This document shows positions 8,863 to 25,558 of a stretch of DNA of 64,000 nucleotides, in pieces. Position numbers and translations under genes: made by a program. Each line of letters opens with the position of its first letter. The first letter of the stretch is position 1. The DNA is from Fervidobacterium pennivorans DSM 9078 (GTDB lineage: Bacteria > Thermotogota > Thermotogae > Thermotogales > Fervidobacteriaceae): assembly GCF_000235405.2 (NCBI RefSeq), contig NC_017095.1, positions 1,761,501-1,825,500 of the forward strand. Reading direction: 5' to 3'. The notes beneath the pieces were generated by a model. It was not told the origin of the DNA, did not search any database, and was given only the letters and a program-made list of their open reading frames with translations.

Positions 8863-10281
8863 TTAATTTTCGATTATCTTTTTCATTTCTGCAATTACAA
8901 ACGGATAAAGTTCATCGATTAATTTCTTAACTTGCTCACTACTTTTTGTTCTCCAGTCCCGTTCAATTATATCCGCGACGAGTTTTGTATCTTTTTTCAA
9001 AAACGCCTCAAGCGCTTGTTTAGCTAATAAAACCCTTGGTTTTATATACCAGTTGATAACTCTTTCTGGCAGGTGTGTTTCTTCAAATTCGATATTTTCA
9101 CCACTCACCCATGCGCATATTTCAACAGCAACATCATCGTCTATACCTTTTATCTTACCTTTGTTTATCATATTAACGACGAATCGCCTTTTTGTACCAT
9201 TCACAACGCTATCAATAAATGGAACATGCTGTTCGCCACTTAGTTTTTCACTATCAAGTAATTCATTAACCATGTTTTTCCAATCATCTTCTAGCCAAGG
9301 CATTAAGTTCATGGAATCTTTTACTTTTTCCAACGTAAGACCATTTTCGATAGCTGTTGCAAATTGGTTGATGATTTCGACAACTTTGTATAATTGTTCT
9401 ACATACCATTTCCAACCTAATTCCGAATCGGCACCACCCCATGGTTCACCATACCATCTTTTCTTTGTTTCTAAATCCCTGTGGTATTTCCATGTCGAAT
9501 TTCTCACAGTATCGCCTATTGGGAATAGTCCATAAAAATCGTACATATCCCATGCAACAGGTGACAATTGGTCGTCAAATGGATTTGATGGCTTGTGTTG
9601 AATTTTACCTTTGTATTTATCGATTTCCGGGTAAAGATCTTTCCCATCTTTTGTTGTAAATTTTGTTAGCCAAATACCGTGGTTGACACCACCCACTTGC
9701 CAATCATATTCTTTCACCCCAATTAAATTGGCCAAACTCTCAACTGCATAGTGCCCGTGACAAAAGCCTACCATTTTTATTGATGTTTGCGTCGAAACCA
9801 GGGTTGTACCTTCAAACACTGGATTTGCAGCTTGCAAATACCAGGCGTTAGGTGCAAATTTTTCAATCATCTTAGCTATTTTCAAAAAAAGTGAAAATTG
9901 ATTCCAATTTGTGAGGTTAAGATAGTCAGAAACGAAGTTATAATTTTGCGCATCGATACCTCTGTAGTATCCGTGCTTTTCCCCAATTTCTCTGACTTTG
10001 TCAAGGTAACTATGCCCACCAGCCATAGCTGTGTTAATTACGAAATCTGCGCCATCTATTACTTTTGTCATATCCGTTGTAGTTTCTATCTTCAAATTTG
10101 CACCGAAAACTCTTGATAATTCGTTGGCGAGTATACCAGTGTTTCTTAGCCTTGCTTCGTCGATATCCATCAGTACAACGTGTGAGCCGCTGAGTTTTGG
10201 CATTTTACAAAGGTCCGAGATAATTCTCATCGAAAAAACGGCGCTACCAGCTCCTATGATACCTATCTTCAGGTTGTTCAT
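8863..10281 (-). CDS. Family 4 glycoside hydrolase (AglA-like alpha-glycosidase)
   Basis: A 472-residue cytosolic enzyme very close in pattern to Thermotoga maritima AglA. GIIGAGSAVFS at residues 7-17 is the NAD-binding loop; FCHGHY places the metal ligand at Cys174, and GGVNHG gives His201; IGDTVRNS is also conserved. GH4 enzymes use NAD+ and usually Mn2+ to cleave glycosides by a redox elimination-addition route. Start ATG 10281 follows AAAGGGGGG. It is the last gene of the LacI-led operon. AglA acts on alpha-glucosides, but the GH130 neighbour suggests that the true substrate could be a mannose-containing disaccharide; the sequence alone does not settle this. Confidence 0.9.
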   Translation of the reverse strand: MNNLKIGIIGAGSAVFSMRIISDLCKMPKLSGSHVVLMDIDEARLRNTGILANELSRVFGANLKIETTTDMTKVIDGADFVINTAMAGGHSYLDKVREIGEKHGYYRGIDAQNYNFVSDYLNLTNWNQFSLFLKIAKMIEKFAPNAWYLQAANPVFEGTTLVSTQTSIKMVGFCHGHYAVESLANLIGVKEYDWQVGGVNHGIWLTKFTTKDGKDLYPEIDKYKGKIQHKPSNPFDDQLSPVAWDMYDFYGLFPIGDTVRNSTWKYHRDLETKKRWYGEPWGGADSELGWKWYVEQLYKVVEIINQFATAIENGLTLEKVKDSMNLMPWLEDDWKNMVNELLDSEKLSGEQHVPFIDSVVNGTKRRFVVNMINKGKIKGIDDDVAVEICAWVSGENIEFEETHLPERVINWYIKPRVLLAKQALEAFLKKDTKLVADIIERDWRTKSSEQVKKLIDELYPFVIAEMKKIIEN

Positions 10282-10344
10282 CGTGTTCCCCCCTTTTTGC
10301 TTCGGATAGTTTGGATAGTTTATTAGATTATACCACTTTATTTG

Positions 10345-11232
10345 TTATGATTTGCACCATTCAAATACTTCATCGACACTTATCGTTGCAAGTGCGATGT
10401 AATTATCGGCAGCACCGTAATAAACGTAATACTGACCGTTGTATTCAACCATCGCATCACTAAATACCACATTCGGTACTCCACCAAATATCTCCCAATC
10501 TTCTTCAGGTTCAAGTATTGGTTTTTCGCTTCTTTTCAATACTTTCGTTGGATCGTTCAAATCAAGAAGCATAAATCCGAGTCTGTATATCGGTCTTGGT
10601 GCATCTTCAACGCCATGATAGAGTAATAACCATCCATACGGAGTTTTTATCGGTGGAGCACCCGCACCAACTTTGAGATTATCCCAGTAACCTTCCCTTG
10701 GACCTGCTACTTTAACGTAATTACCCCAATTGATAAGGTCATCGGAATATGCGAACCATATATCAGGGGGGAACCTATGAATCATTATGTATTTACCATT
10801 AATTTTCTCTGGAAACAAAGCTGCATCTTTGTTGTCAATTTCATCTTTTATCACAATGCCATATCTTTCCCAAGTGATGAAATTCTTTGTTGAAGCCATT
10901 GCAACTCTTGGACCTTTCGGGGAATACGCAGTATAGAGCATATAATATTTATCTCCTAACTTCGTGATTCTTGGATCCTCCACACCGTAAAGTTCATCTT
11001 GGCAAGCCGGTGAGAAGACGGGTTTTTCCAACCTGTTGAAATGTACACCATCTGTACTAACTGCGTAACCTATCCTTGAAACCATATCCTGTCCTTGCGC
11101 TCTGTAAAGAAGATGGAACAATTCACCATCGTAAACTACTGCGCAGTTGAATACGAACTTATCTTCCCATATATGACCTGGGACTGGTGCTAATAAAGGG
11201 CTAAGCGGGTGTCTTTTCAGTTTTAAATCCAT
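10345..11232 (-). CDS. Family 130 glycoside phosphorylase (beta-mannoside type)
   Basis: A five-bladed propeller enzyme of GH130, 295 residues from the chosen start. Conserved stretches include FNCAVVYDGE, LYRAQG, GVEDPRI (around the proton-donor Asp region), HRFPPDIWFAYS and YGAADNYIA. GH130 enzymes reversibly phosphorolyse beta-1,4- or 1,2-linked mannosides to mannose 1-phosphate. ATG 11232 is preferred because AAAGGAGG lies about 9 nt upstream; ATG 11238 is too close to it and TTG 11256 lies upstream of it. The gene starts 30 nt after the upstream permease gene ends. Exact substrate is unknown. Confidence 0.88.
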   Translation of the reverse strand: MDLKLKRHPLSPLLAPVPGHIWEDKFVFNCAVVYDGELFHLLYRAQGQDMVSRIGYAVSTDGVHFNRLEKPVFSPACQDELYGVEDPRITKLGDKYYMLYTAYSPKGPRVAMASTKNFITWERYGIVIKDEIDNKDAALFPEKINGKYIMIHRFPPDIWFAYSDDLINWGNYVKVAGPREGYWDNLKVGAGAPPIKTPYGWLLLYHGVEDAPRPIYRLGFMLLDLNDPTKVLKRSEKPILEPEEDWEIFGGVPNVVFSDAMVEYNGQYYVYYGAADNYIALATISVDEVFEWCKS

Positions 11233-11261
11233 CAACATGCTCCTCCTTTCACTCAACGAGT

Positions 11262-12086
11262 TTATCTTAACGACATTGATATACCTTGCAAGAAGTATTG
11301 CCTTAACACAAGGAAAATTAATACCATTGGAATAGTCTGGATAACTGCACCTGCAAGTACAGGACCTATGTAACTTGCGTATTCATGATTGAAAGATGCA
11401 AGCAAAACTGAAAGTGGCATCCTGTTGTAATCTTTCATCACCATAAGTGGCCACAGGAAGTTATCCCACGTACCTATGAATGTGAACATTCCAACTATCG
11501 AAGCGGTAGACTTTGCCAGTGGTAACATAATTCTAAAAACAATCCAAAAGTTATTTGCACCATCTATCTTTGCGGCATCTATGTAATCTTTTGGGATAGT
11601 CTTGAAAGATTGTGCAAACATGAACACGCCCCATGAACTTGTCAAAGATGGTACAATAAGCGCTTGATAAGTATTAAGCCATCCAAGGTTTCTTATCAAA
11701 ATGAACATAGGTATCATGAACATAAATCCCGGAAAGAGCATCTGGTATATCAGGAAATTGAAAACGTACTTACCAATTTTGAACTCTATCTTTGATACAA
11801 CGTACCCTATAATTGCTGATGTGATCAAAACAGAAAACGTAACAGTCGTGGTTATGAAAAGACTATTCAAAAAAGCTCTTACAAAAGGTCTTTGGAACTT
11901 GTTGGCCATTAGGAATATAAACTTGTAATGCTCAAGGGTGAGCCTTTTTGGTAAAAATGTCGTGTATATATCCTCTGCTGGTTTAAACGAAGACATTACA
12001 AGCCATACATACGGGTAAATCCACAAGAACGCAAGTGCCAGAAGCACGACAGTGATAACCCATGAAACGATGCGTTCTCTTTTCAT
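11262..12086 (-). CDS. ABC sugar transporter permease, MalG-type
   Basis: A 274-residue inner-membrane protein with six predicted membrane segments. The loop EAA-type motif is YIDAAKIDGANNFWIVFRIMLPLAK at about residues 167-191, which docks onto the ATPase. It is the second permease of a carbohydrate-uptake (CUT1) importer and overlaps its partner by 4 nt (ATGA). No ATPase gene is in the operon, so a shared MsmK/MalK-type ATPase encoded elsewhere is likely. Confidence 0.93.
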   Translation of the reverse strand: MKRERIVSWVITVVLLALAFLWIYPYVWLVMSSFKPAEDIYTTFLPKRLTLEHYKFIFLMANKFQRPFVRAFLNSLFITTTVTFSVLITSAIIGYVVSKIEFKIGKYVFNFLIYQMLFPGFMFMIPMFILIRNLGWLNTYQALIVPSLTSSWGVFMFAQSFKTIPKDYIDAAKIDGANNFWIVFRIMLPLAKSTASIVGMFTFIGTWDNFLWPLMVMKDYNRMPLSVLLASFNHEYASYIGPVLAGAVIQTIPMVLIFLVLRQYFLQGISMSLR

Positions 12087-12967
12087 ACGAACACCACTTC
12101 TTTCTCAAAGAACTTTCGTATAAGCATTACAAGTGCATAACTAACTAAAGCTGTTACTATTGCCACTGTAGTTGCGTACGATGGATCTATTCTCTTAAAA
12201 GCAGTGTCGTACATGTAAATCAAGAACGTAGTCGTTCTTTGCATGGGTCCGCCACCTGTAATCATGTACGGTTCGGTGAAGATACCAAACGTTAGTGTGA
12301 TTGCAAGCACCGTCACGGTGATAAGCGATGGATTGAGTAACGGAAGAGTGATTTTCCAAAATATCGTCTTTTTATCGGCACCGTCAAGCTCTGCGGCTTC
12401 GTAAATCGATTGGGGTATCGAGAGCAACCCTGCGTATATTATCAACCCATAGTAACCTATGAATTTCCACGTGATGATCAGACAAATCGAAAAAACTGCC
12501 AATTGCGGATTACTGAACCAAGGGATTGTGAATCCAAATAAACTATCTACAAGTCTGTTTATTGGTCCGTTGATAGAAAATAGATTCGAAAACAAAAGCG
12601 AATAAGCAACACCTGATGAAACATTCGCAACCAAAAAGCTGAGCATGATGAAAGTCTTACCAAATTTCACCTTTGTCAATGCCATTGCAAAAAGGAGTGA
12701 AGCAAATAACACCATTGGTATCAAATAAGCAAGAAAATTCAAAGTATTAAGGGCTATCCGAATGACCAAACTATCGGTGAATATTCTAAGAAAGTTGTTC
12801 AAGAATACAAACTGTGGTTTTGAAAAATAATTCCATTTTGTGAAAGCCAAGACAACCATCCAAATGAACGGATAGCCCCAAAAAACCGCCGTGTAAGCTA
12901 AGTAAGGAAATATAACCGAATAACCAAATGCTCTTTCCTTCTTACCAAGTTTCGAGCAATTTGACAT
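12083..12967 (-). CDS. ABC sugar transporter permease, MalF-type
   Basis: A permease of about 294 residues with six predicted membrane segments and the docking motif YEAAELDGADKKTIFWKITLP. It pairs with the MalG-type protein. ATG 12967 is the first ATG in frame; a TTG at 13012 would add 15 residues, but neither start has a strong ribosome site, so the N-terminus is uncertain. It lies between the binding-protein gene and the second permease, the usual order of CUT1 sugar importers. Confidence 0.92.
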   Translation of the reverse strand: MSNCSKLGKKERAFGYSVIFPYLAYTAVFWGYPFIWMVVLAFTKWNYFSKPQFVFLNNFLRIFTDSLVIRIALNTLNFLAYLIPMVLFASLLFAMALTKVKFGKTFIMLSFLVANVSSGVAYSLLFSNLFSINGPINRLVDSLFGFTIPWFSNPQLAVFSICLIITWKFIGYYGLIIYAGLLSIPQSIYEAAELDGADKKTIFWKITLPLLNPSLITVTVLAITLTFGIFTEPYMITGGGPMQRTTTFLIYMYDTAFKRIDPSYATTVAIVTALVSYALVMLIRKFFEKEVVFV

Positions 12968-13030
12968 AATTTCACATCCAATCTTTTCCTCTCTTTTCCT
13001 CCAAGAATTCAAGAAATAAAATTAAAACAC

Positions 13031-14281
13031 TCAGAATAATAATTTGTTGATTTCCTTCACAGCCTTATCAAGGATATCGAGTGGTTTACCTTTAAGATAC
13101 ATCAAAGGTTCTATAAGTTGTGTGGTCATAGCTTGTTGAATATCGATAGTCTTATCGATAAGTGCGGGTGGTACGGCGTATGGAACAAACTCACAGTACG
13201 CTTTGAAGAACTTGTCATCCATGTACTTTGCAAAGAGCGGATTTGTCGTTAAATCTTCCCTTGCAGGTGGCATCTTAGTCTTTTCTATCCACAGAGCATC
13301 GTTTTGTGCATTTGAAAAAACCCAAGAGATGAATTCAAAAGCTTCCTTTTTGTACTTTGATGTCGAGTAAATAACTAATCCTTTTGAATCAGCAAATGTA
13401 TAAATGGGTTTATCTTTCGGATAATTATCTGGAACAGGTGGTGCTGAGAACCAGATTTCTGGAACAACTTTCGGGAATGTTTCCTTTGCCCAGTTAACTT
13501 CCCACGGACCTGTGATCTTACCAAGTATTACACCTTTATAGAATGGATTATCACCGAGCTCAACTGCTGTGTATTTCTTTTCAAACATCGTGTAAATAAA
13601 TTGAACTATCTGCTTTCCAGTATCATCACCGAAGTTTACTTTTCTTTTTGCAACATCTATGTACGGTTTACCACCAGACGCTGCGTAATAATAAGTTATA
13701 AAATCGAACCATCTATCCCACCAGTTTCTTCCCACGACAACTTGCATTGTGAATTTCGTCTTTCCATCTGCAAACTTTTTACTGACTTCGTAAATATCGT
13801 TGTACGTCCTTGGTGGGTTGTTGTAACCAAGTTTCTTAAGTAAATCGCCTCTCCACCAGAACAACATCGGGTTTGAATAAATTGGGAAAACGTAATACTT
13901 GCCTTTAATCTTCCAACCTTCGATGATGTTTTTCATCTTCCTTGTTTCTATAAGCTTTTGAAAATCAGCACCAAAGGTATCCAATGGATAAATCGCACCG
14001 ATATCGGCAAGTTGAGCAGCAAAGCCGCTGAAGATGTTTTCAGAAAAATCTGGTGCGTTTCCTGCGGCAATTGCTGTAAGTATCGCCTCTTCCGAACTTC
14101 CGGCTGCGGGTATAGTTTGAACTTTAATTTGTATATCTGGTCTTGCTTTATTCCATTGAGCTACGATGGTTTTCCAAAACTCTTCTTGCAAAGGATTTGG
14201 TGCAGTCCAAAAGACAAGTTCAACTGCCCACGTCAACGTAACAATCAGACCCAGTATCAAACCGATCAAAACTTTCCTCAT
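13031..14281 (-). CDS. ABC sugar transporter substrate-binding protein
   Basis: A 416-residue extracellular binding protein (family 1). The first ~19 residues (MRKVLIGLILGLIVTLTWA) are a signal peptide; the mature protein opens with VELVFWTAPNPLQEEFW, typical of maltose-type binding proteins. ATG follows GAGGAGGGG. It should capture an oligosaccharide for the two permeases downstream. It follows lacI by 56 bp, with an AT-only tandem repeat in between. The ligand is unknown. Confidence 0.93.
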   Translation of the reverse strand: MRKVLIGLILGLIVTLTWAVELVFWTAPNPLQEEFWKTIVAQWNKARPDIQIKVQTIPAAGSSEEAILTAIAAGNAPDFSENIFSGFAAQLADIGAIYPLDTFGADFQKLIETRKMKNIIEGWKIKGKYYVFPIYSNPMLFWWRGDLLKKLGYNNPPRTYNDIYEVSKKFADGKTKFTMQVVVGRNWWDRWFDFITYYYAASGGKPYIDVAKRKVNFGDDTGKQIVQFIYTMFEKKYTAVELGDNPFYKGVILGKITGPWEVNWAKETFPKVVPEIWFSAPPVPDNYPKDKPIYTFADSKGLVIYSTSKYKKEAFEFISWVFSNAQNDALWIEKTKMPPAREDLTTNPLFAKYMDDKFFKAYCEFVPYAVPPALIDKTIDIQQAMTTQLIEPLMYLKGKPLDILDKAVKEINKLLF

Positions 14282-14315
14282 ACTGACCCCTCCTCGAGAA
14301 AGTGTGGAAACGTGT

Positions 14316-14345
14316 TAAATATTTAATATTTAAATATTTAATATT
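14316..14345. repeat. Exact 15-bp tandem repeat between lacI and binding-protein gene
   Basis: TAAATATTTAATATT occurs twice head to tail and covers the lacI stop codon (14338-14340) and the start of the short intergenic gap. Each unit is nearly self-complementary, so the transcript could fold weakly here. It may affect the ratio of regulator to binding-protein mRNA, which is inference only. Confidence 0.7.
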
Positions 14346-15306
14346 TAGAAGAATTTCTTTTAACAAATAACGTATACAAACACTGTTTGTATGGATGCAA
14401 ACTCTGACCTGTCAATAATTCGTAAATCCTCTTTACTGCGTTTAAACCAAGTTCTGATTTCTGAACTCTCAGTGTCGATAACCCTTCTCTTTCCGCTGCT
14501 GGTATATCATCGAACCCTATAACACTGATATCTTCTGGAATCTTGTATCCCAATTCTCTGAGTTTTGAAAGCGTTCGAAGAGCTATCACATCGTTTGAAC
14601 AGATTATTGCTTCAGGAACCCAATCTCTCAGCATTTTTTTTAGAACATTGTCAACATCTTCGTGCAAATCATCGTACTCGTACGTGATAGGCAATTTTCC
14701 ATACCTTGTCATCGCACTTACATATCCGTTGTACCTATCTCTAAACCCGTAATACTTCAACGGGCCGTGTAAATGCACGATACGATTCAAACCCTTACTT
14801 ATAATTTCCTTTGTGACAAAGAACACACCATCGTAACCATCACTCACAATGCTATTCACTCGCAATCCGTCTATATAGTGATCAACAAGCACAACTTTTG
14901 CTTTAGAGCTAAGCTTAAGTATCTGTTCTTCCGTTGCATCACTACCAACCAATATATAACCATCATGATTTGTTTTAAAATCCCAATCATCTAAACAAAT
15001 CGTTTCAGTGGAGATCTTGTACATAGCCGATGCACTTTCAATAGCTTCCAAAATAATCTTGTAAAAGACCCCTATTTCCGTTGAAAGTATCTCTTGAATT
15101 CTCCTACTTACTACTATCCCAACCTCAAAATTCTTCCTTCTGGCAAGTGCTTGTGCAGAAAAATGTGGTCTATATCCAAGTTCTTTTATAGCTTTAAGCA
15201 CCTTCAATTCAGTTTCTTCAGAAACATATCCAGTTCCATTGAGTACCCTCGAAACTGTGGCAATCGAAACACCTGCTTTCAACGCAACATCTTCTATCGA
15301 AACCAT
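14338..15306 (-). CDS. LacI-family transcriptional regulator
   Basis: A 322-residue repressor-type protein. Residues 1-22 (MVSIEDVALKAGVSIATVSRVL) are the LacI helix-turn-helix, followed by a hinge and a periplasmic-binding-protein-like sugar sensor ending with SVIGFDDIPAAEREGLSTLR. ATG 15306 is chosen because AAGGAG is 10 nt upstream and the helix-turn-helix starts at residue 2; a longer reading to 15336 adds 10 residues without support. It heads the minus-strand sugar operon and probably represses both itself and the divergent gene at 15616 through matched operators. Confidence 0.93.
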   Translation of the reverse strand: MVSIEDVALKAGVSIATVSRVLNGTGYVSEETELKVLKAIKELGYRPHFSAQALARRKNFEVGIVVSRRIQEILSTEIGVFYKIILEAIESASAMYKISTETICLDDWDFKTNHDGYILVGSDATEEQILKLSSKAKVVLVDHYIDGLRVNSIVSDGYDGVFFVTKEIISKGLNRIVHLHGPLKYYGFRDRYNGYVSAMTRYGKLPITYEYDDLHEDVDNVLKKMLRDWVPEAIICSNDVIALRTLSKLRELGYKIPEDISVIGFDDIPAAEREGLSTLRVQKSELGLNAVKRIYELLTGQSLHPYKQCLYTLFVKRNSSKY

Positions 15307-15365
15307 TGTCTTATCACTCCTTTCACTTAAAAACATAAGAACATCACTTTTAATGTTGATAAGCT

Positions 15366-15417
15366 GTAAGCGTTTACATACTGTCTATATTATACATTTC
15401 CGTTTTTGGAATACCAA
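15366..15417 (-). promoter_or_regulatory. lacI-operon promoter with LacI operator
   Basis: On the minus strand, TTGGTA (15412-15417) and TATAAT (15389-15394) are 17 bp apart. Six bp downstream of the -10 lies GTAAGCGTTTACATACT (plus-strand 15366-15382), whose core GTAAGCGTTTAC is a LacI-type palindrome. The same 17 bases occur inverted in front of the divergent gene. Confidence 0.8.
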
Positions 15418-15522: not shown

Positions 15523-15575
15523 TTGAGATAATTTAAACCAAAACATTATAATATCGTTAGTATGTAAACGCTTAC
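15523..15575 (+). promoter_or_regulatory. Divergent promoter with matching LacI operator
   Basis: TTGAGA (15523-15528) and TATAAT (15547-15552) are 18 bp apart. AGTATGTAAACGCTTAC (15559-15575), the exact reverse complement of the site in front of lacI, begins 6 bp after the -10, so a bound repressor would cover the transcription start. Confidence 0.8.
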
Positions 15576-15615
15576 CTATTTTTCCATTTCCACCACATTA
15601 GAGGGAGGTGTAGGT

Positions 15616-16941
15616 ATGAAGAGGGTACTTGGGATTTTAGTATTGTTAAGCGGTTTGGTTGTTCTTGGTGCTACCGTTACCATACCAGTTGTTGCTGGAA
15701 ACGTAGAAGTCCCTGTTGTATTGCAGATGGGAAAATTAGTTGATATTCTTCCTGAAGATTTCGAACCTGACTGGACAAGCTTAAAGGTCATTGTTGACAA
15801 CAAGGAAGTTCCTTATCAAATTGACGATGTTGATGGTAACAAGCGTGTATCTGCACCAGATTATTTGGTGTTTGTAGCAAAAGGTAACGGTAAGATACAA
15901 GTATCGGATCAAGCTGCAAAAGCACCAAGTTATACAAAAGCATTCACTGTTACAAAATCAGACAAGGGTTGGACAATTAAAACAACGGATAACACACTGG
16001 AGGTGTTTGTTAACGGAATTGCCAGGATCAACCAGTTTGGAAACATCAAAGCGAATTTGGTCGACGAAATAGGAATTGCGAGGATAGCAGGCTGGTCAAG
16101 GTCAACATATTTTGTTAATGGAGACATTGGTAATCAACACGATGAAGAAACATCACAAGGCTTAAGAGCAGTTGACGTGAAAGTTTTTGAACCCGGTCCG
16201 GTTGCAGTTGGAATAAAGGCGCTTTTACAATCCGATAAGTTCTTTGGACTCTTCCAAGATTTACTCATCTATGTCTTCAAAAATGGTGATATTTACGTTG
16301 ACAACAATTTCCTCTTCTACAACTATGCTGATATCATGAAACTTCAGACGATGATTACAAAGCCTATCATTCCTGCATTTGACGATACAGTCCATATACT
16401 CCCCGTCTTCAGAAGATTGGCATGGGCAGACCAACTTGGCATTACTCCATACGAATACTGGCTTGAAAGGAATGCCGTTACTTGGATAAACAAGATACCG
16501 TACATCGTATTCCCAGCAGGACAGAGTATGAAACCACTCTTCTGGGGTGCAACTTACATATTTGCTTCAGCGGAAAGATGGAGAAGCAACTATTCACCAA
16601 AGGGAAAAGTTGGTATCGCAGAGATATTCCCAACAGTGCCAATGGTCAAAGCGGACTATGCAAAGTGGCTTGAGGGAGACACGTGGGTGTATGAAAGTCT
16701 TGAGTTCAGAACCGGTATATTCAAATGGGTTGCCGATGAATTCAATGCATATCCAGCCACTGAAAATGTCTATCCTGTATGGGGTACAAAGAAAGAAGCT
16801 ATGCCAAATAGATACAAAGCGGGAGATAAAGTTGAACATACGATGCTTTACACACTTTACAGCGCAAACTCTGTCGAAGATGCTGTGAAACTCATTGAAG
16901 AAAAGAGTAAATCATTCAGGTCGCTTAAAATAGGCGAGTAA
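15616..16941 (+). CDS. Exported protein of unknown function in sugar locus
   Basis: A 441-residue protein with a signal peptide (residues 1-19, MKRVLGILVLLSGLVVLGA). The opening section (VPVVLQMG..., then VPYQIDDVDG at about 70-80) recalls the N-terminal part of DUF4861-like carbohydrate-active proteins, but I do not recognise the family securely. It is rich in Trp, Tyr and Phe, fitting a beta-rich, carbohydrate-facing protein. ATG follows GAGGGAGGTG. It is transcribed away from lacI behind the same operator, so it is probably induced together with the importer. A terminator follows at 16954. Confidence 0.85.
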   Translation: MKRVLGILVLLSGLVVLGATVTIPVVAGNVEVPVVLQMGKLVDILPEDFEPDWTSLKVIVDNKEVPYQIDDVDGNKRVSAPDYLVFVAKGNGKIQVSDQAAKAPSYTKAFTVTKSDKGWTIKTTDNTLEVFVNGIARINQFGNIKANLVDEIGIARIAGWSRSTYFVNGDIGNQHDEETSQGLRAVDVKVFEPGPVAVGIKALLQSDKFFGLFQDLLIYVFKNGDIYVDNNFLFYNYADIMKLQTMITKPIIPAFDDTVHILPVFRRLAWADQLGITPYEYWLERNAVTWINKIPYIVFPAGQSMKPLFWGATYIFASAERWRSNYSPKGKVGIAEIFPTVPMVKADYAKWLEGDTWVYESLEFRTGIFKWVADEFNAYPATENVYPVWGTKKEAMPNRYKAGDKVEHTMLYTLYSANSVEDAVKLIEEKSKSFRSLKIGE

Positions 16942-16953
16942 GAATTCACCTCT

Positions 16954-16979
16954 AAGGTCAGGCGAAAGCCTGACCTTTT
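16954..16979 (+). terminator. Rho-independent terminator
   Basis: AAGGTCAGGC and GCCTGACCTT form a perfect 10-bp stem with a GAAA tetraloop and a short T run. It is 13 nt after the 15616-16941 gene. Confidence 0.9.
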
Positions 16980-17007
16980 GTGTTTATCATTCTAAACGGG
17001 GTTGGTG

Positions 17008-19158
17008 ATGCAGATGAGAATGTACAGAGCGCTTGTGGTGATGGGAATGTTATTAGCTATCGTGGGATTTTCCAATTTGAACTTCAATATTACACATCTT
17101 GAAAGACTATCTGAGTGGTTCGCTCTTGATGGTGAGATGGTCAAGGGATACTGGGTTTACGCAGAAAACAAAGGTAATGCATTTATACCCGTTAGTGCAC
17201 TAAACGAGGGAGATTTTTGTGTTGATGATGTGGCAAGAGTGGTATTGCTTTATTCCGAGGCGTATGAATTAACGAAAGATAGTAAATATCTGAATTTAGC
17301 TTTAGATGCAGCGAAGTTCGTTGTAAAGATGCAAGCAAGTGATGGAGAGTTTTACAACTTTGCATACAAAGATGGCACAATCAATAAGTACGGTATCACG
17401 AGTCAGAAATCCGCAGGTTGGTGGGCTCTGAGAGCGTTTTGGGGGTTGTCAAAGCTTGCAAAATTCACCGATGATAGTAAGATCCATGAAGCAGTCAAGA
17501 AAACGTACAACGCACTCAAAAGAAAACCACCAACTTCAGCTGATCAATTAGCACTTTACATCCTTGGGCTTTGCAATTATTACGAAGTTTACCAATCATC
17601 AGAAGTTCTCAAAGAGATAAATAAATACGCCACAGATTTACTGGATTATGAAATAAAAAACTTCGATAGTTTGAAAGGCTTTTTTACCGTTTACAAAGAC
17701 AGATTGTTATGGAACGGATGGGGAAACCATTACATAGAAGCACTGCTACGTGCTTACAAAATCACAGGTAACGAGAAATTTCTTTCGGTTGCAGAAAAAT
17801 CACTCATTTCACAAGCTTCTATTATGATTTCAACAGGTTTGATCTATTCAATCCAAAATTATTTCAAGTTGTACCCAGAATTAGCTTACGCACTTGAATG
17901 TACGGCAGTTCCTCTTGTTCTGTTGTACGATATCGAGAAAGATGAAAAGTACGCCTTGCTTTCCTCTTTAGCCATTTCTTGGTTGTTTGGCGGAAATAGA
18001 CTTGGTGTTAGAATGTTTGGTGAAAATGGAGAAGGTTACGATGGTATGGAATATATGCATTACAACAGAAATGCCGGTGCGGAATCAACAATTTGCAGTC
18101 TCAGAACGATTCTTCATGGTATGAAATTACCAGAAACTTACCAAACATTAGCAATGAATCCAGAGTTAATTGGTCGTTCTGGTGTAATTGTACTTGAAGC
18201 AGAAGCTTTTGACATTGGCATATCTTCCGCCAAGATGGTAACAGGAGATTACGGTTCAGGTGCGAGCTTACAAATGGACGGAAAAGGGCGAATACGAAAA
18301 CAAAATATTGAAAATGGAACGTATTATATTCTCTTATCTGGTAATTTTTCTAATACAACGATAACTGTATCTTCCAAAACGAGTGTTAAAAAAGACTTAA
18401 CTGGTAAGGGACTCTTTGAAATTGGTATCGTTGAGATAGAAGGTAATTTATCTGTTTCAAATTCAAACAGTTGCAACATCGACCAGATAATATTGATTCC
18501 ACAACAATTGGGAATCTCATTCGATAAGAAAAATCCTAAGACTGTTCTTTACGATATACCATCTCAAACATTGAAGATTAAAAATAGACAAATTTTCACA
18601 TCGAAGAGCAAAGAATTTTCTTTCGAATCAATAGCTAAACTTGAATACTCCGGAACCTTTGGTTTAGTGGATCTGTCTGATTTTTACAACAACGACGGCA
18701 TTGGAACACCTCAAAATCCTGCAAACTTCGATAACTTAGGTGGTGTTGTTGGAGCGTATTTACCACAAAACGAAATCGATGAAGGTATTATATACCTCAA
18801 CAACGTACCATTTTACTTGAAAACAATTGGAATGGATAACATAAGATGTGATGGACAGGTTATAGTTCTTCCGGAAAAACTTTACGTGAAAAAAATATAC
18901 ATCCTTGCTGCCGCCAATCATGGGGATTACAATGTCAAATTCACTATAGATAACTCTGATTATGAACTAAATATACATGACTGGTGTAACTCACCAAAAG
19001 ATATAGTATTTGATTACAGATATATATCTTCAGGGGAGAAGCAATACATAAAATGCGGTATAGATACGTACGTGTTAGAAATTAACGACTTTGTGAGTAA
19101 GATAATCTTACCTCAGCAAATCAATGTACACATCTTTGCATTGACGATTGAAAGATAA
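17008..19158 (+). CDS. Secreted multidomain glycan-active protein (toroid plus CBM35-like)
   Basis: A protein of about 716 residues with a hydrophobic export signal (to about residue 23). Residues ~30-380 form a helical repeat region (DDVARVVLLYSEAYE, GWWALRAFWGLSKLA, WNGWGNHYIEALL) like the alpha/alpha toroid of several glycosidase and lyase families. From about 395, GVIVLEAEAFD begins a CBM35/6-like beta module, and the last ~170 residues (DLSDFYNNDGIGTP..., GDYNVKFTIDNSDYEL) are another beta-sandwich. The catalytic family cannot be named. ATG 17008 is taken because GGGG precedes it by about 7 nt; ATG 17014 or 17020 are alternatives. It presumably handles the polysaccharide whose fragments the importer takes up. 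Confidence 0.85.
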   Translation: MQMRMYRALVVMGMLLAIVGFSNLNFNITHLERLSEWFALDGEMVKGYWVYAENKGNAFIPVSALNEGDFCVDDVARVVLLYSEAYELTKDSKYLNLALDAAKFVVKMQASDGEFYNFAYKDGTINKYGITSQKSAGWWALRAFWGLSKLAKFTDDSKIHEAVKKTYNALKRKPPTSADQLALYILGLCNYYEVYQSSEVLKEINKYATDLLDYEIKNFDSLKGFFTVYKDRLLWNGWGNHYIEALLRAYKITGNEKFLSVAEKSLISQASIMISTGLIYSIQNYFKLYPELAYALECTAVPLVLLYDIEKDEKYALLSSLAISWLFGGNRLGVRMFGENGEGYDGMEYMHYNRNAGAESTICSLRTILHGMKLPETYQTLAMNPELIGRSGVIVLEAEAFDIGISSAKMVTGDYGSGASLQMDGKGRIRKQNIENGTYYILLSGNFSNTTITVSSKTSVKKDLTGKGLFEIGIVEIEGNLSVSNSNSCNIDQIILIPQQLGISFDKKNPKTVLYDIPSQTLKIKNRQIFTSKSKEFSFESIAKLEYSGTFGLVDLSDFYNNDGIGTPQNPANFDNLGGVVGAYLPQNEIDEGIIYLNNVPFYLKTIGMDNIRCDGQVIVLPEKLYVKKIYILAAANHGDYNVKFTIDNSDYELNIHDWCNSPKDIVFDYRYISSGEKQYIKCGIDTYVLEINDFVSKIILPQQINVHIFALTIER

Positions 19159-19176
19159 AATATAGCTACAATTCTT

Positions 19177-19206
19177 AAACCACCGGTTTGTACCGGTGGT
19201 TTTTTA
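19177..19206 (+). terminator. Rho-independent terminator
   Basis: AAACCACCGGT pairs with ACCGGTGGTTT and is followed by a T run, 19 nt after the preceding gene. Confidence 0.92.
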
Positions 19207-19294
19207 CATGAAAAAATTCCAAATGCATTGCACAAAATTCGCGAAATGTGAGAAAATATATTTAGTCTACCATTCTTAAAAAGGGGGTAAGTGT

Positions 19295-21286
19295 ATGAAA
19301 GCGTTAAGAGGTATTTTGATAATTTTCCTTGTTTTGTCCATTTTCTCTTTTGCGGCGTTAAAGATTGATGGTAACAAGGTTGTATTCACATTCAGCTATC
19401 CACAGGCAAGTACAGTGCATTTGGCAGGTACATTTAACAATTGGTCGACAAACGCTAATCCGATGAGAAGAGAAGGCGATTTGTGGATAACAGAACTTGA
19501 ACTTAAACCGGGTACTTACCAGTATAAGTTCGTTATCGATGGTGGTAAAGTTTGGAAAGAAGACCCAGATGCTCCAGGATACACAGATGACGGATTTGGT
19601 GGTAAAAATGGTGTGTTTACTCTTGCACAAAAAGATGGAAAACTTGTTATCGTTGCACCAGCAGCTGAAATAAAAGAAAAAGTTGAAATTAACACAGAAA
19701 GAAAGGAAAACTTTTCCATCGAAGATAATGCATATGTGGTTATAAAATTCTACAAACCAGAAGCTAAATACGTTTTCATAGCGGGGTCTTTCAACAACTG
19801 GAGTATGAGCGATACTGAATGTTACAGCTCTGGCGACGGATGGTGGGAAGCCGTTCTTGAACTTTCAGCGGGTGTTTACCAATACAAATTCGTTGTCGAT
19901 GGTAAAGATTGGGTGGCTGATCCAAACGCTCCAGCCTACGTTGATGATGGTTTTGGTGGTAAGAACGGTATCTTCGAAGTGTGGAAAGAAGATGGAAAAC
20001 TAAGAGTTGGTGCTCCAAAGGTTCAGAAAGAAGAAGAACAAACCAAAGTTGAATTACCTAAGGAAAATATTATCAAGTCAGTTCAATACGAAATCGATGG
20101 AAAATTATCTGATGTTGAAAAATCAACGGCGATGTACAGCGGAACAGTTATAAAACAAGCTTACGTTGCAAGAACATCAACAGCTGCGTACGTGAGCATC
20201 GTACTTGACAAACCAGCAAGAGATTACGTTGGACAAAATGTTCTCTTTGAAGTTTACACCGACGCACCAAAAATGACAGCGTCGAACAGAAAAACATCCG
20301 GTGGTACAATACTCAGTAAACCAGTTGGTTTCAGATTCTCACTCAACATGAGAACATGGCAAACAAGGAAACGTGGTACATTCTTCGCAGCTGCAGGAGA
20401 CGATTCTTGGATACTCCAAGCAAATGTCTTCAAATCAGCAGTTGATGATGTTGTCGAGATTGAAATACCATACGATATACTCGGAATCAAAAGTGGGGAA
20501 AATTTCAACATTTACATCGTATGTTCTGTTGATGGAAAAGATGAAGTACTGCCGCAAGAAGGCATAGCTATAAAGACACCTACGATGCTTTCTGGAAATG
20601 TGATAGCAAAATTCGCCGATAAAATTGGCGATGATTACGGCTTTGGTACGTACGTTTATCCAAAAGATCCAGCTTTTGCGCCTTACAAAGGACTTTGGGA
20701 CATAACAGAAGTTACCGTACTTGAAAATGACGAAGCGTACGTTTTCAGCATCAAATTTGCTGAAATGACCAACCCATGGGCGTCACCAAAAGGCTTTTCA
20801 CACCAACTTGTGAACATTTACCTTGACACAAAGGCTGGTGGAAAGACGTCAACATACAAAGAAGGGGCAAGGGTACAATTCAAAGAACCTTGGGATTACT
20901 TCATAAAGGTTGCAGGATGGCCAGATGATAGAATAGTCTTTGCCACAGCCGATGGTAAAGAAATACCAGAAGCTATAATATACGAAGCCGATCCAGCAGA
21001 TAAAGTGATACATATAATCGTATTCAAGAAATACCTTGAAGTGAAAACTGGTATAAAAGCATACATCTTATCACTTAGCCAAGACGGATATGGTACTGAT
21101 CACATCAGACCTGTTTCAAAAGACCCAACACAATGGACACTCGGTGGATACCCCGTTGATTCAAAAGACTTTGCACCATACGTACTTGATACAATAGTTC
21201 CAGAAGGTCAAAAACAAGAAGACATACTTAAATCATATGTTCCAGGACAATCGTACGCAACATTGATACCAATCGTGGTAAAATGA
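19295..21286 (+). CDS. Secreted twin-CBM48 protein with glucodextranase C-like domain
   Basis: A 663-residue exported protein with a signal peptide to about residue 20. Two glycogen-binding (CBM48/AMPK-beta-like) domains follow, at about 24-120 and 145-240; each has the pattern GTFNNWS or GSFNNWS, then YQYKFV, then DGFGGKNG. After a linker, ~270-430 is a DOMON/CBM9-like segment. The last ~230 residues (IGDDYGFGTYVYP, WDITEVTVL, VNIYLDTKAGG, YGTDHIRPV) match the binding module found at the C-terminus of glucodextranases and some Thermotogae pullulanases. There is no catalytic domain, so it probably binds starch-like or related glucan at the cell surface. ATG follows AAGGGGGT. Confidence 0.88.
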   Translation: MKALRGILIIFLVLSIFSFAALKIDGNKVVFTFSYPQASTVHLAGTFNNWSTNANPMRREGDLWITELELKPGTYQYKFVIDGGKVWKEDPDAPGYTDDGFGGKNGVFTLAQKDGKLVIVAPAAEIKEKVEINTERKENFSIEDNAYVVIKFYKPEAKYVFIAGSFNNWSMSDTECYSSGDGWWEAVLELSAGVYQYKFVVDGKDWVADPNAPAYVDDGFGGKNGIFEVWKEDGKLRVGAPKVQKEEEQTKVELPKENIIKSVQYEIDGKLSDVEKSTAMYSGTVIKQAYVARTSTAAYVSIVLDKPARDYVGQNVLFEVYTDAPKMTASNRKTSGGTILSKPVGFRFSLNMRTWQTRKRGTFFAAAGDDSWILQANVFKSAVDDVVEIEIPYDILGIKSGENFNIYIVCSVDGKDEVLPQEGIAIKTPTMLSGNVIAKFADKIGDDYGFGTYVYPKDPAFAPYKGLWDITEVTVLENDEAYVFSIKFAEMTNPWASPKGFSHQLVNIYLDTKAGGKTSTYKEGARVQFKEPWDYFIKVAGWPDDRIVFATADGKEIPEAIIYEADPADKVIHIIVFKKYLEVKTGIKAYILSLSQDGYGTDHIRPVSKDPTQWTLGGYPVDSKDFAPYVLDTIVPEGQKQEDILKSYVPGQSYATLIPIVVK

Positions 21287-21347: not shown

Positions 21348-21415
21348 GATGAATTAGAAGAGATAGTGATATAATATTTTCGAGATTTAAACTTCAAAAC
21401 AAAGAGGTGAGAATA

Positions 21416-23017
21416 ATGAAAGAACTGCCGATAGGTGTAATAGATTTCAAAGATTTAATAAATGGAAATTTTACATACGTGGATAAGACAAAGTACATAT
21501 ACGAACTGGTGAAAAGAGCAAAAGGATACTATTTTCTTTCCCGACCAAGGAGATTTGGGAAGAGTTTGACAGTGAGTGTACTTGAGTATTTATTCAAAGG
21601 AGAGAAAAAACTATTCGAAGGCACATGGATATACGACAAATGGAATTGGGAAAGCTTTCCTGTTGTTAGGCTGGATATGAACGAAATAGATACAACTTCA
21701 CCGGAAGATACGTACAATTCTCTTTTCTTAAGATTAAAACGTATAGCCAAAGATTACGATGTTTCATGTGTTGACGGCACTATTTCCGATGTATTCTATT
21801 ATCTTGTGCAGGATATAGGTCGGAAATACAACAAACCCGTTGTCTTACTCATCGATGAATACGAAAAGCCGATATTAGATCATATTTCAGACAAACAAAA
21901 GGCACACGAAATGAGAGAAATACTCAGACAACTGTACACAAAAATCAAAAGTCTTGATCAATATCTTCGCTTTGTCTTTCTCACTGGTATTACCAAATAC
22001 ACCAAGGCTGGTGTGTTCTCCACTTTGAACAACCTTGTTGATATATCTTTCCATGAAGATTTTTCTCAAATGCTTGGATATACACAAGAGGAAATCATTC
22101 AATATTTTCCTGAGTACATTGATATGGCTTGTCAAAAGTTAAATATGAGCAAGGATTACTTACTTGAGCAACTTGAGAAATACTATGGCGGTTTTTCTTT
22201 CGATGGAAAACACTTTGTGTTCAATCCATTTGCGGTACTTTTGTTTTTCTTTCACAAAAGCTTTCTTGTATACTGGAACGATTCAGGAGCACCGAAGTTT
22301 TTACATGATTATCTACGTGCAAGGAAAGTCAAGCTTGAAGATATCCTCAAAAAAGATTTACTCATCTCATATATCGAATTGACAAGTAGAGAAATAGAAG
22401 AGAGCGTTGCTAAATCTTTCCTTGTTCAAGCAGGATATCTGACATTTTACAAGGAAATAGACAGCGGACTGTACGGGTTAAAAATACCAAACATAGACGC
22501 TGGGCAATCATTGTCTCAGATGTTACTTGAATTGAATTACGAATTGGATATAGATGATTTAAACAGAATAGGAGTAAAGATAAAGGATGCTGTGAAAAAA
22601 GAAAACGTTGATGGGTTGATAGGTGGATTAAAAGAGATACTTGGTAAGATGAGCTATCGGTTGAGTGAGAAGATAAAACAAGTAACGAAGAATGAAGAAC
22701 AAGAAGACAAATTAAGGACGATAGAATCGCACTATGAGATGGTGATAAGCGGGATATTATTTGGAAGTGGAGTGTACCATGAGATAGAAAAAGAAGTATC
22801 CGGAGGGATAATAGACATTCTGATAGAAAACAACGGGGTTGCGTATATAATTGAGCTGAAGGTTGACAAAAGTGCAAAAGAAGCGCTTGAACAGATAAAG
22901 GAAAGAAGATATTATGAAGGATTCACAAGCAAGAAATGTTATCTTATAGGTGTGAGTATAGATAGTCGGTTAAAAAACATAAAGGAATGGACCTACGAAG
23001 TTATCGAGGCAAAGTAA
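21416..23017 (+). CDS. AAA-ATPase-like / PD-(D/E)XK nuclease fusion (DUF1703 type)
   Basis: A 533-residue protein of a family common in anaerobes. It starts with LPIGVIDFKDLI and has a P-loop-like RPRRFGKSL at about residues 43-51, a Walker B-like VVLLIDEYEKP near 140-150, and a C-terminal PD-(D/E)XK nuclease-like domain with GIIDILIENN...YIIELKVDKS near 460-485. ATG 21416 follows AAAGAGGTGA; a GTG at 21407 overlaps that site. The function of the family is not established; it is often multicopy and horizontally spread, which has led to suggestions of a defence or mobile role. It sits beside a mobile-element zone. Confidence 0.9.
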   Translation: MKELPIGVIDFKDLINGNFTYVDKTKYIYELVKRAKGYYFLSRPRRFGKSLTVSVLEYLFKGEKKLFEGTWIYDKWNWESFPVVRLDMNEIDTTSPEDTYNSLFLRLKRIAKDYDVSCVDGTISDVFYYLVQDIGRKYNKPVVLLIDEYEKPILDHISDKQKAHEMREILRQLYTKIKSLDQYLRFVFLTGITKYTKAGVFSTLNNLVDISFHEDFSQMLGYTQEEIIQYFPEYIDMACQKLNMSKDYLLEQLEKYYGGFSFDGKHFVFNPFAVLLFFFHKSFLVYWNDSGAPKFLHDYLRARKVKLEDILKKDLLISYIELTSREIEESVAKSFLVQAGYLTFYKEIDSGLYGLKIPNIDAGQSLSQMLLELNYELDIDDLNRIGVKIKDAVKKENVDGLIGGLKEILGKMSYRLSEKIKQVTKNEEQEDKLRTIESHYEMVISGILFGSGVYHEIEKEVSGGIIDILIENNGVAYIIELKVDKSAKEALEQIKERRYYEGFTSKKCYLIGVSIDSRLKNIKEWTYEVIEAK

Positions 23018-23608: not shown

Positions 23609-24931
23609 AGACTGTTCGGTGATATGAAAAAGTAGGGCAAAAAAGTAAAATTCTTGTTCTTCATCAAGATTTGTTTCTGAAAACCTTTGTCGTTTTTCTT
23701 CGTCGGTTTTTGAAATTGGTAATTTTCGTTCTTTGATAGTCAATTTCTAAGCTTTTTTCACTAAAAAATATCTTCACTGTCTCCACATTGCTTTTTTACT
23801 TGGATTTGATTTTTCTTTACTTGTTTGTTTTACTGTAGTGCAAATAGTTCTTGATGGTGTTCAAACAAGTAATTCAGTAACGGTTTTTGTATCTTTGTCC
23901 AGTTTTTTGCTTGATGTTTTATTCTTAGTTCTCTTTTGATATTGTGCATTACCACAAACGCTTTGATGTAATAAAACACATTCGATAATTTTTTGAATCC
24001 TCTTCTAACTTGAGTAAACATTGCAAGAAGACTATTTCTTGATTCAGCTGGTTGATTTTTCTTTGAATCGATGATTTTGTGCTTGATATTGAGTTTTTCG
24101 CAAGCTACAGCATAGGAAGGTAGACCGTCAGAGTAAACAAGTTTAGGTTTACATGGAAAGATTAGTTGCAAAGCTTCAAAAGTATCACGATTAGTGGAAA
24201 CAACAAAGTTAACGATTCTGTACTTACTCACGGCAAAGAAAATGTACAAATTACGTCTTTCATCACCGATTTTGATTTTCTCAAACTTCTCATCGACGTT
24301 GATAATATCAGACAGGATAGGAGAAAATACGATAGCTTTAGAAAGATTGATGATCCACTGATAAATAGTAGATACACTTGGAGAGTAACCTTGAGAAATT
24401 AAAACATTTCTAATTTGTCTGATAGACAAATTAGAATAGAAAAGCTCAAAGGCATGCAAGCAGACAGAAATAGGATACTTAGGCGAAAAACGGATAGAAG
24501 AGAAATACTCAACCAAAGAAAGAGTAAAAAGGTCAACGTTAGTTTTGAAATCACAAGTGCGACAACGGAAACGGACGTAAGAATGACGGACTTTGGAGAT
24601 TTTCATGGGGCGATCACAATGAGGGCAGCGAGGATAAGGGAAATCGAAGCGTTTCTTACGCTGAGCTTTAGGGAAAGAGAAAGTGCGTTTACATTCAGAA
24701 CAGATGAAACTGGTAACTTGAACCAAAGAACCATCGGGAGCACGACGATGATAGTGAGCGTTGATGTAGACTTTAGTTGGATGATCGCAGTAAGGACAGC
24801 GAGGACGATTGGAGAAGTCGGATTTACGTGGCATAGGGTAATCTACTTTCGTGAGGATGGAGGGGGGTGTACCCCTCTTTAAGAATTATACAACGAATTC
24901 GGATGGTTATCATAATTTTATCGAACAGTCT
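23609..24931 (-). mobile_element. Insertion sequence with IS6/IS240-like transposase
   Basis: AGACTGTTCG at 23609 and its inverted copy ending at 24931 (CGAACAGTCT) are the probable ends of a 1.3-kb element around the transposase. A second imperfect copy of the end, GAACAGTCT, follows at 24933. No target duplication is visible, and the flanks are unrelated: a truncated glgP on one side and non-coding DNA on the other. This fits an insertion followed by deletion. About 220 bases inside the left end (23610-23829) hold no gene. The exact right boundary is uncertain by about 10 bp. Confidence 0.65.
23830..24834 (-). CDS. DDE transposase with zinc-ribbon N-terminus
   Basis: A 334-residue transposase. 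Two CxxC pairs at about residues 13-48 (CPYC, CSEC) and another pair of CxxC (CPHC, CRTC) at about 70-95 suggest zinc-ribbon DNA binding. The catalytic triad appears as Asp in INVDEKF, Asp in VYSDGLPSY and Glu in QPAESRNS, the spacing of the IS6/IS240-like DDE core. The frame is intact. Only about 25-30% similar by eye to the one at 28694, so the two are different elements of related families. The start ATG lacks a strong ribosome site. Confidence 0.85.
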   Translation of the reverse strand: MPRKSDFSNRPRCPYCDHPTKVYINAHYHRRAPDGSLVQVTSFICSECKRTFSFPKAQRKKRFDFPYPRCPHCDRPMKISKVRHSYVRFRCRTCDFKTNVDLFTLSLVEYFSSIRFSPKYPISVCLHAFELFYSNLSIRQIRNVLISQGYSPSVSTIYQWIINLSKAIVFSPILSDIINVDEKFEKIKIGDERRNLYIFFAVSKYRIVNFVVSTNRDTFEALQLIFPCKPKLVYSDGLPSYAVACEKLNIKHKIIDSKKNQPAESRNSLLAMFTQVRRGFKKLSNVFYYIKAFVVMHNIKRELRIKHQAKNWTKIQKPLLNYLFEHHQELFALQ

Positions 24932-25552
24932 AGAACAGTCTCTAAATTTCAAATTACCCTTTTCATCTGTATAAGGTTCACTTCTGCCAAAAAATCTAAC
25001 CTTTACCGCTTCTTCCGGCTTTGGAAATTCCCATGGATATCCATTCTTTAGCCAATCATCTGGGAGTTCCTTTTGAAATCCATTTTCGATAGCTTGTTTA
25101 AACAGGCCGTATTGATACCTAATCGTGTATCCGTAAGAAAGGCAACCGAGGGTGGCTAAGGAATCGAGAAAACAGGCGGCAAGTCTTCCAAGTCCACCGT
25201 TACCAAGCGCTGCATCTTCTTCCAAAAGCGCAATTTCATCGAGAGATACGTTGTATTTACTCAAAAGTTCTTTAACTTCATCTTCCGCTTTCAAGTTCAA
25301 GATATTGTTGTACAACAACCTACCTATCAAAAATTCCATCGATAGATAATTGACTATTTTCAGATCTTTCTTTTTGTAGATTATCTCTTCTGTGTTGAGC
25401 CATTTTTCGGCAATCAGGTCTCTAACAGAGTAGGAAAGTGCAAAGAATTTCTGTAGCAACGTGGAATACTCCGTTTTTTCCGCCAAGGAATGATGCATGT
25501 GGTACTTAAATTGCGTCGATAAGTCTAGTTTTTTGCTATTTCTTGCCACCAT
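24932..25552 (-). pseudogene. glgP: Glycogen phosphorylase, N-terminal fragment
   Basis: About 205 residues of the N-terminal part of an alpha-glucan phosphorylase, including the family patterns VNYLSMEFLIGRLL and EDAALGNGGLGRLAACFLDS, then YGYTIRYQYGLF. Full enzymes are around 800 residues or more; here the reading enters the IS at 24931 and ends at 24824 after foreign codons. The missing C-terminal part with the PLP lysine is not found on the other side of the IS, so it was deleted rather than just interrupted. ATG 25552 follows AAAGGGGTG. Function must be lost unless another copy exists. Confidence 0.9.
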
Positions 25553-25558
25553 CCGCAC

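Follow-up and report, generated by a model that had tools for sequence, protein, structure and literature searches.

In the genome of Fervidobacterium pennivorans DSM 9078, three genes for exported proteins lie back to back with an ATP-binding cassette (ABC) importer and a GH130 enzyme, an arrangement that raises the question of which of the exported proteins belong with the importer and which glycan they would process. The window, the whole 64,000-nucleotide stretch analysed here as part of a 2,166,381-base contig, carries the three open reading frames (ORFs) on the plus strand, termed P1 (441 amino acids, 15616-16941), P2 (718 amino acids, 17002-19158) and P3 (663 amino acids, 19295-21286), all with hydrophobic N-termini. 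An earlier note, made from the same sequence, had described this exported row, with 716 residues for P2, and had placed it beside an importer with GH130 and GH4; both observations are confirmed, the latter by Pfam and NCBIfam assignments on the minus strand, and the interpretation of the note as a whole is partly supported. The favoured reading, to which a probability of about 0.5 is given, is that of a LacI-controlled mannoside-use locus, in which P2, together with P1, would cut a beta-1,2-mannosyl glycan outside the cell, the importer would take up the pieces and GH130 would form mannose 1-phosphate. The parts of this reading that the sequence supports are the gene content, its conservation, the shared operator region, the family assignments and the link of the P2 toroid to GH130 importers in three phyla.

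The association of P1 and P2 with the importer was surveyed in 103 Thermotogota genomes, F. pennivorans DSM 9078 included. P1 occurs in 66 of these, P2 in 67 and both in 65; every close pair shares one strand, and the two genes lie no more than 500 bp apart in 58 of the 65 genomes and no more than 10 kb apart in 63. A GH130 with at least 64% identity is present in 81 genomes, 61 of which hold P1 and P2 as well; where P1 and this GH130 occur together, in 62 genomes, they lie within 10 kb of each other in 57. The association of P1 and P2 with each other and with this GH130 is greater than expected by chance; the Fisher value from the survey, 6e-24, overstates independence as the genomes are related. 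All 26 loci picked for holding P1 (L035-L054 and L067-L072) also contain P2, GH130, LacI and the binding protein; the ORF calls missed or merged a permease in L042, L044 and L052, split the binding protein of L041 into two ORFs and missed the P1 of L042, which is known from the genome-wide survey. Gene order varies among the loci in three ways, being divergent as in the window, or with P1-P2 inside the importer row between the binding protein and permease A (L041, L044, L045), or as a single co-directional row with P2 last (L048, L049, L050). The F. pennivorans genome itself holds a second, diverged copy of the whole row at C1:1834000-1853000 (L035), lacking GH4, with identities to the window of 84% for GH130, 66% for P1 and 56% for P2. 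Relative to L037, the dN/dS values are low, at 0.03 for P1 and 0.13 for P2, with dS near saturation. At 10 chosen places the neighbours of the core were mostly unrelated genes, apart from a third GH130, a gene of the phosphoglucomutase/phosphomannomutase family and a GH65. Taken as comparative sequence evidence, these data support the view that the GH130 importer has two exported partners, P1 and P2, neither of them characterised.

In the window, the divergent partner of the exported row is the minus-strand block 8863-15336, which comprises the genes of a LacI-family regulator (14338-15336; LacI helix-turn-helix and Peripla_BP_3), an ABC solute-binding protein (13031-14281; SBP_bac_1, 112.7 bits), permease A (12083-13012; a conserved ORF), permease B (11262-12086; an ORF conserved next to GH130), GH130 (10345-11256) and GH4 (8863-10281), the last an accessory gene that ends the importer row. 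The 279-bp gap between LacI and P1 contains a palindrome of the LacI kind twice, 198 bp apart: an exact copy, TGTAARCGYTTACA, at 15365-15378 on the LacI/importer side, and a copy with one mismatch at 15563-15576 on the P1 side. Across 20 gaps, namely that of the window and those of the 19 of 26 loci with a divergent LacI, 18 contain one or more sites with no more than two mismatches and 14 contain two, compared with means of 0.125 (maximum 2) and 0.005 (maximum 1) in 200 shuffles; since the pattern was derived from the same gaps, this comparison tests its recurrence and not an outside motif. The whole genome has six sites with at most one mismatch, four of which lie inside the gaps of the two locus copies. 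Operator-like sites at C1:1279683 and C1:1957676 were set aside, having unrelated ORFs around them. Both operators have promoter-like boxes ahead of them in either direction, and such boxes are similarly frequent in shuffled sequence. In L053, an alkaline phosphatase precedes P1.

The GH130 of the window scores 319 bits on Pfam Glyco_hydro_130 (cut-off 26) and, among solved structures, matches the beta-1,2-mannobiose phosphorylase 7FIP (304.5 bits) and the 1,2-beta-oligomannan phosphorylase 9FJ8 (296.3 bits) better than Lin0857 (182.9 bits) or the beta-1,4 enzyme TM1225/1VKD (162.4 bits), so that by sequence it is closest to the beta-1,2-mannobiose phosphorylases. The adjoining GH4 is assigned as an AglA-type alpha-glucosidase (NCBIfam alpha_gluc_AglA, 736 bits, cut-off 650; best solved structure 1OBB, 565 bits). 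In a genome lacking the locus (G070), a GH4 with 96% identity to that of the window is found at another site, C1:1455373-1456788.

It is possible, at clearly less than even odds, that the substrate is a mixed alpha-glucose/beta-mannose glycan, for which the alpha-glucosidase would be a core step, and not that of a pure beta-1,2-mannan system. A substrate with both linkages had been proposed in the earlier note from the CBM48 domains of P3 together with GH130. The CBM48 part of that argument falls with the placement of P3 discussed below; the idea itself survives on other grounds, as unrelated alpha-glucosidases recur beside this type of GH130. At least 12 genomes, from two families, have the GH4 no more than 8 kb from this GH130, and in 10 of them the distance is 10 to 67 bp. 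GH13 alpha-glucosidase genes take the same place beside GH130 importers in Enterobacter and Metabacillus, and Gemmatirosa gives a weaker GH13 match. Most Thermotogota loci with P1 and P2, however, have no adjoining alpha-glucosidase, none was found near the GH130 rows in the examined stretches of Niallia and Sphingomonas, Thermotoga has a GH38 alpha-mannosidase instead, and AglA-type GH4 genes also occur at other places in many genomes.

The mannoside reading assigns the outer step to P2, which consists of a predicted toroid (residues ~25-390), an undefined middle part (~393-503) and a C-terminal domain (~545-718). A profile of 20 homologues matches the uncharacterised exported protein YPO2471 (structure 7TEM) over its length (residues 4-418, E 5.5e-63). 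The toroid model built from the window sequence alone is of modest confidence (pLDDT 53, pTM 0.60), and the fold search proposed for P2 in the earlier note returned 7TEM as its first match both with Foldseek (E 5e-9) and with VIA-align (Z 21.6, 295 residues, rmsd 4.7). On this combined profile and model evidence, P2 is assigned an (alpha/alpha)6 toroid homologous to 7TEM, in agreement with the toroid of the earlier note. The CBM35-like module proposed alongside it received no support: among 20 homologues scanned at E up to 1, no carbohydrate-binding family of note was found in the middle part (CBM60 in one homologue, E 0.089) and no carbohydrate-binding structure was matched, which is absence and not exclusion. 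The C-terminal domain matches AziU2/Azi28 in profile searches (E 1.7e-6 and 2.3e-6 in one search, about 2e-7 in another). YPO2471 shares the full-length toroid with P2, with D75, D76, D347 and E361 kept in the alignment, but has 427 amino acids and no C-terminal domains.

Five acidic residues of P2 (E69, D75, D76, D347 and E361) show no variation across 22 toroids. In GH76 the catalytic pair consists of two adjacent Asp residues, and GH9 enzymes carry an Asp pair close to the N-terminal end and a Glu close to the C-terminal end; the likeness of the P2 acids to these residues is a lead only. In Pfam scans, GH9 and GH76 matches appear in some P2 homologues only, and the window P2 gives weak matches to GH88 and GH127 below cut-off.

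A doubtful alternative is that the toroid fold of P2 belongs not to a hydrolase but to an epimerase, to an enzyme of a lyase-like kind or to a binding protein. Behind 7TEM, the next fold matches of the P2 model were GH9, 2-epimerases and GH76 mannanases (Z 17 to 19.4 by VIA-align, in a display of matches that does not show every family, so that absences from it are uninformative); cellobiose 2-epimerase and epimerases of the AGE type are among the best of these, at Z about 19 for a model of the stated confidence, and the Pfam C5-epimerase model exceeds its cut-off on P2 (36.5 against 23.3 bits). The C5-epimerase match, however, is confined to about 70 residues (243-313), a divergent member of the toroid group matches GH9 with an E value of 8.7e-6, just under the Pfam cut-off, and the hydrophobic N-terminus of P2 is unlike the known 2-epimerases, which are cytoplasmic.

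The association of the toroid with GH130 importers extends beyond Thermotogota. Among 72,556 plasmid records, GH130 of this kind occurs on just 61, and only two toroid matches were obtained, in Sphingomonas and Gemmatirosa, both beside GH130 and importer genes, so that the tie between toroid and GH130 importer spans three phyla. The Sphingomonas row consists of LacI, toroid, binding protein, two permeases, GH130 and DUF1861; the Gemmatirosa row contains two GH130 genes, then toroid and binding protein as one 1024-codon ORF, then two permeases. This ORF (L056:7386-10460) runs in one frame with no stop, and its match to the window binding protein begins at residue 20 of the latter; a match that starts after the signal part speaks for a true fusion of toroid and binding protein. 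Other plasmids with a GH130 of the Lin0857 type were rejected as counterparts: those of Persicobacter and Aureibacter carry loci of the SusC/D type with no such importer, the match in Alicyclobacillus is broken into three pieces, and the gene of Ilyobacter stands in a glycosyltransferase context. DUF1861 proteins (L055:15480-16424 and L090:8027-8998) adjoin GH130 in Sphingomonas, in Metabacillus and, as identified by match, in Niallia, which suggests a further partner of GH130 rows, of no assigned role.

For P1, the earlier description as unrecognised stands: no Pfam family exceeds its cut-off and no NCBIfam model matches. DUF4861 was considered and rejected (E 0.0018, 17.8 bits, cut-off 22.3); the match is confined to the first ~65 to 75 residues, appears below cut-off in 12 of 21 homologues at E up to 1, and exceeds the cut-off for DUF4861 in none of the 103 Thermotogota genomes. 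No match to P1 was found in solved structures or in plasmid records, and neither P1 nor P2 was found in viral contigs. A structure model of P1 from two sequences was unusable (pLDDT 35). The scan of genome contigs returned a single Thermotogota contig and detects close relatives only, so that absence of P1 outside Thermotogota is not shown. In the open-licence PMC literature, no mention was found of P1, of P2 or of a beta-1,2-mannanase for the outer step.

P3 was judged to stand outside the core. As described earlier, it contains two CBM48/AMPK1-CBM domains and a Glucodextran_C domain (256 bits) with no catalytic domain by Pfam. The two sides of the GH57 domain in a 1193-residue protein (L057) correspond to P3 residues 1-263 and 259-663, and a second long protein (L065) matches P3 in the same two parts. 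The closest known protein type is that of the GH57 pullulanase-type proteins with CBM48 and Glucodextran_C; identification as a GH57 pullulanase itself was rejected, as the GH57 domain present in L057 is lacking in P3. Because the two halves match both GH57 flanks, P3 is best seen, by sequence, as a GH57 pullulanase-type relative stripped of its catalytic domain, and it is probably a separate alpha-glucan-binding protein. Its inclusion in the core was rejected on three counts: a terminator-like hairpin of its own between P2 and P3 (19177-19202, plus strand, -18.1 kcal/mol, z -4.3), also found in L035, L037 and L038 although not in L040; full-length occurrence in only 9 of the 103 genomes; and persistence in G070, at 92% identity, without P1, P2 or this GH130. 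Opposing this placement, 8 P3 copies are accompanied by a P2, and all but one of them lie downstream of it on its strand, no more than 304 bp away; P3 is also under purifying selection (a low dN/dS, 0.06 against L037). Thus, of the single glycan-use system proposed for all three exported proteins, the P1 and P2 part is supported by co-occurrence and operators and the P3 part is not; with P3 outside the system, the inference of an alpha-glucan substrate from CBM48 fails. The F. pennivorans genome also encodes a 665-residue protein with at least three CBM48-type domains (L066:632-2629).

Downstream of P3, the interval 21407-23017 encodes an AAA-ATPase-like plus PDDEXK_9 protein, the G070 counterpart of which is 100% identical across 416 residues. 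Further on, at 23830-25558, inspection by eye shows a 244-residue ORF resembling the start of a glycogen/maltodextrin phosphorylase that ends at a transposase-like ORF, and the former looks like a gene disrupted by insertion.

Several observations weigh against the mannoside-use reading. Eighteen genomes retain this GH130 without P1 and P2, which means that some uses do not require the exported pair. The operator is absent from the L068 and L071 regions, and the genome total of six sites does not exceed that of a reversed-pattern control (seven); for the operators, only placement is telling, not the genome count. A hairpin separates P1 from P2 in the window (16954-16977, plus strand, -18.5 kcal/mol, z -5.2), resembling a terminator or attenuator; it recurs in L035, L037, L038 and L043 and is weak in L044 and L045, and P1 may be produced in larger amount than P2. 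GH130 scores 358 bits on NCBIfam NF052550 (beta-1,2-mannobiose phosphorylase), under the equivalog cut-off of 450. Finally, the fold cannot separate hydrolase from epimerase, as epimerases, GH9, GH76 and others score nearly alike.

Comparison with known systems places the locus near one regulon of Thermotoga. Two loci (L059 and L060) contain the window counterparts in the same order with 48 to 75% identity, both without P1 and P2; the row of L059, from a genome (G090) that we take to be that of T. maritima, consists of LacI, binding protein, permeases, GH130 and a 1010-residue ORF, and in L045 the ORF that agrees with it in length and position is a GH38. For T. maritima, the cited passage lists UgpR (TM1856) with UgpEFG under hypothetical sugar utilization, leaving the sugar unknown (PMC3750489), and TM1851 is given as an alpha-mannosidase in the cited part of another report (PMC2815779); TM1851 as a GH38 alpha-mannosidase and UgpR as TM1856 would fit six consecutive genes. 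The T. maritima form of the locus is therefore probably the UgpR regulon, as far as these passages go. It has the same row as the window, made up of LacI, a binding protein, two permeases and GH130, and differs in having neither P1 nor P2; the window would then represent a fuller UgpR locus with two exported proteins of no assigned function. The Thermoanaerobacter cluster of the beta-1,2-mannoside phosphorylases Teth514_1788/1789 shares an importer and GH130 of the same branch, but adjoins GDP-mannose synthesis genes, GH5 and its own ATPases, and the passage cited names no P1 or P2 (PMC4264767). Tandem GH130 pairs like Teth514_1788/1789 are present in L051, L052 and L054. The beta-1,2-mannobiose phosphorylase Lin0857 of Listeria innocua, as described in the cited excerpt (PMC8950772), is less like the window GH130 than 7FIP is; it is the closest match for the GH130 in the toroid locus of Sphingomonas.

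The Thermotoga form also bears on the unlikely alternative of a glycan resembling N-glycans or yeast mannan, with alpha- and beta-mannose. GH38 lies beside GH130 in one Thermotoga-type genome, two further genomes have an ORF that agrees with it in length and position, and a GH85 endohexosaminidase adjoins locus L041 on the opposite strand (L041:17070-19001), yet GH38 and GH85 were not seen at most of the examined loci. Salvage of beta-1,2-mannosylated compatible solutes such as mannosyl-di-myo-inositol phosphate, which occur in hyperthermophiles, as work on Thermotoga has described, is very unlikely as the function, since related importer and GH130 rows are found in Enterobacter, Sphingomonas, Metabacillus and Gemmatirosa, which to our knowledge are not known for such solutes, and the open-licence PMC literature yielded nothing on it.

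Returning to the mannoside-use reading, the exported toroid enzyme P2, acting with exported P1, would cut or trim an extracellular glycan containing beta-1,2-linked mannose. The binding protein and the two permeases would take up the pieces, powered by an ATPase encoded elsewhere, and GH130 would phosphorolyse beta-mannosyl ends, yielding alpha-mannose 1-phosphate; alpha-linked residues would be stripped by GH4 in the loci that have it, or by GH38 in Thermotoga. LacI would hold both divergent units off through the operator pair until an imported sugar frees it. Within this scheme, the linkage and substrate, the action of P2 as a hydrolase, the role of P1 and the ligand of LacI are what we infer. 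A tentative extension is that P2 is the first of a glycoside hydrolase family not yet described, a beta-1,2-mannanase acting outside the cell that accompanies GH130 importers in three or more phyla, and that P1 founds a second new family and works with it. Together they would supply the outer half that the beta-1,2-mannoside phosphorolysis pathway lacks.

GH130 beta-1,2-mannoside phosphorylases are already known. According to the cited part of the Thermoanaerobacter study, no natural source of the beta-1,2-mannoside substrate had been identified there (PMC4264767), and the GH130 literature passages cited here name neither a natural source of the substrate in thermophiles nor an outer enzyme. 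The locus supplies two exported candidates for the outer step, both conserved in 65 of 103 Thermotogota genomes. If the proposal is true, 7TEM, a structure solved but unexplained, would gain a function, and the UgpR regulon would gain testable content from the locus.

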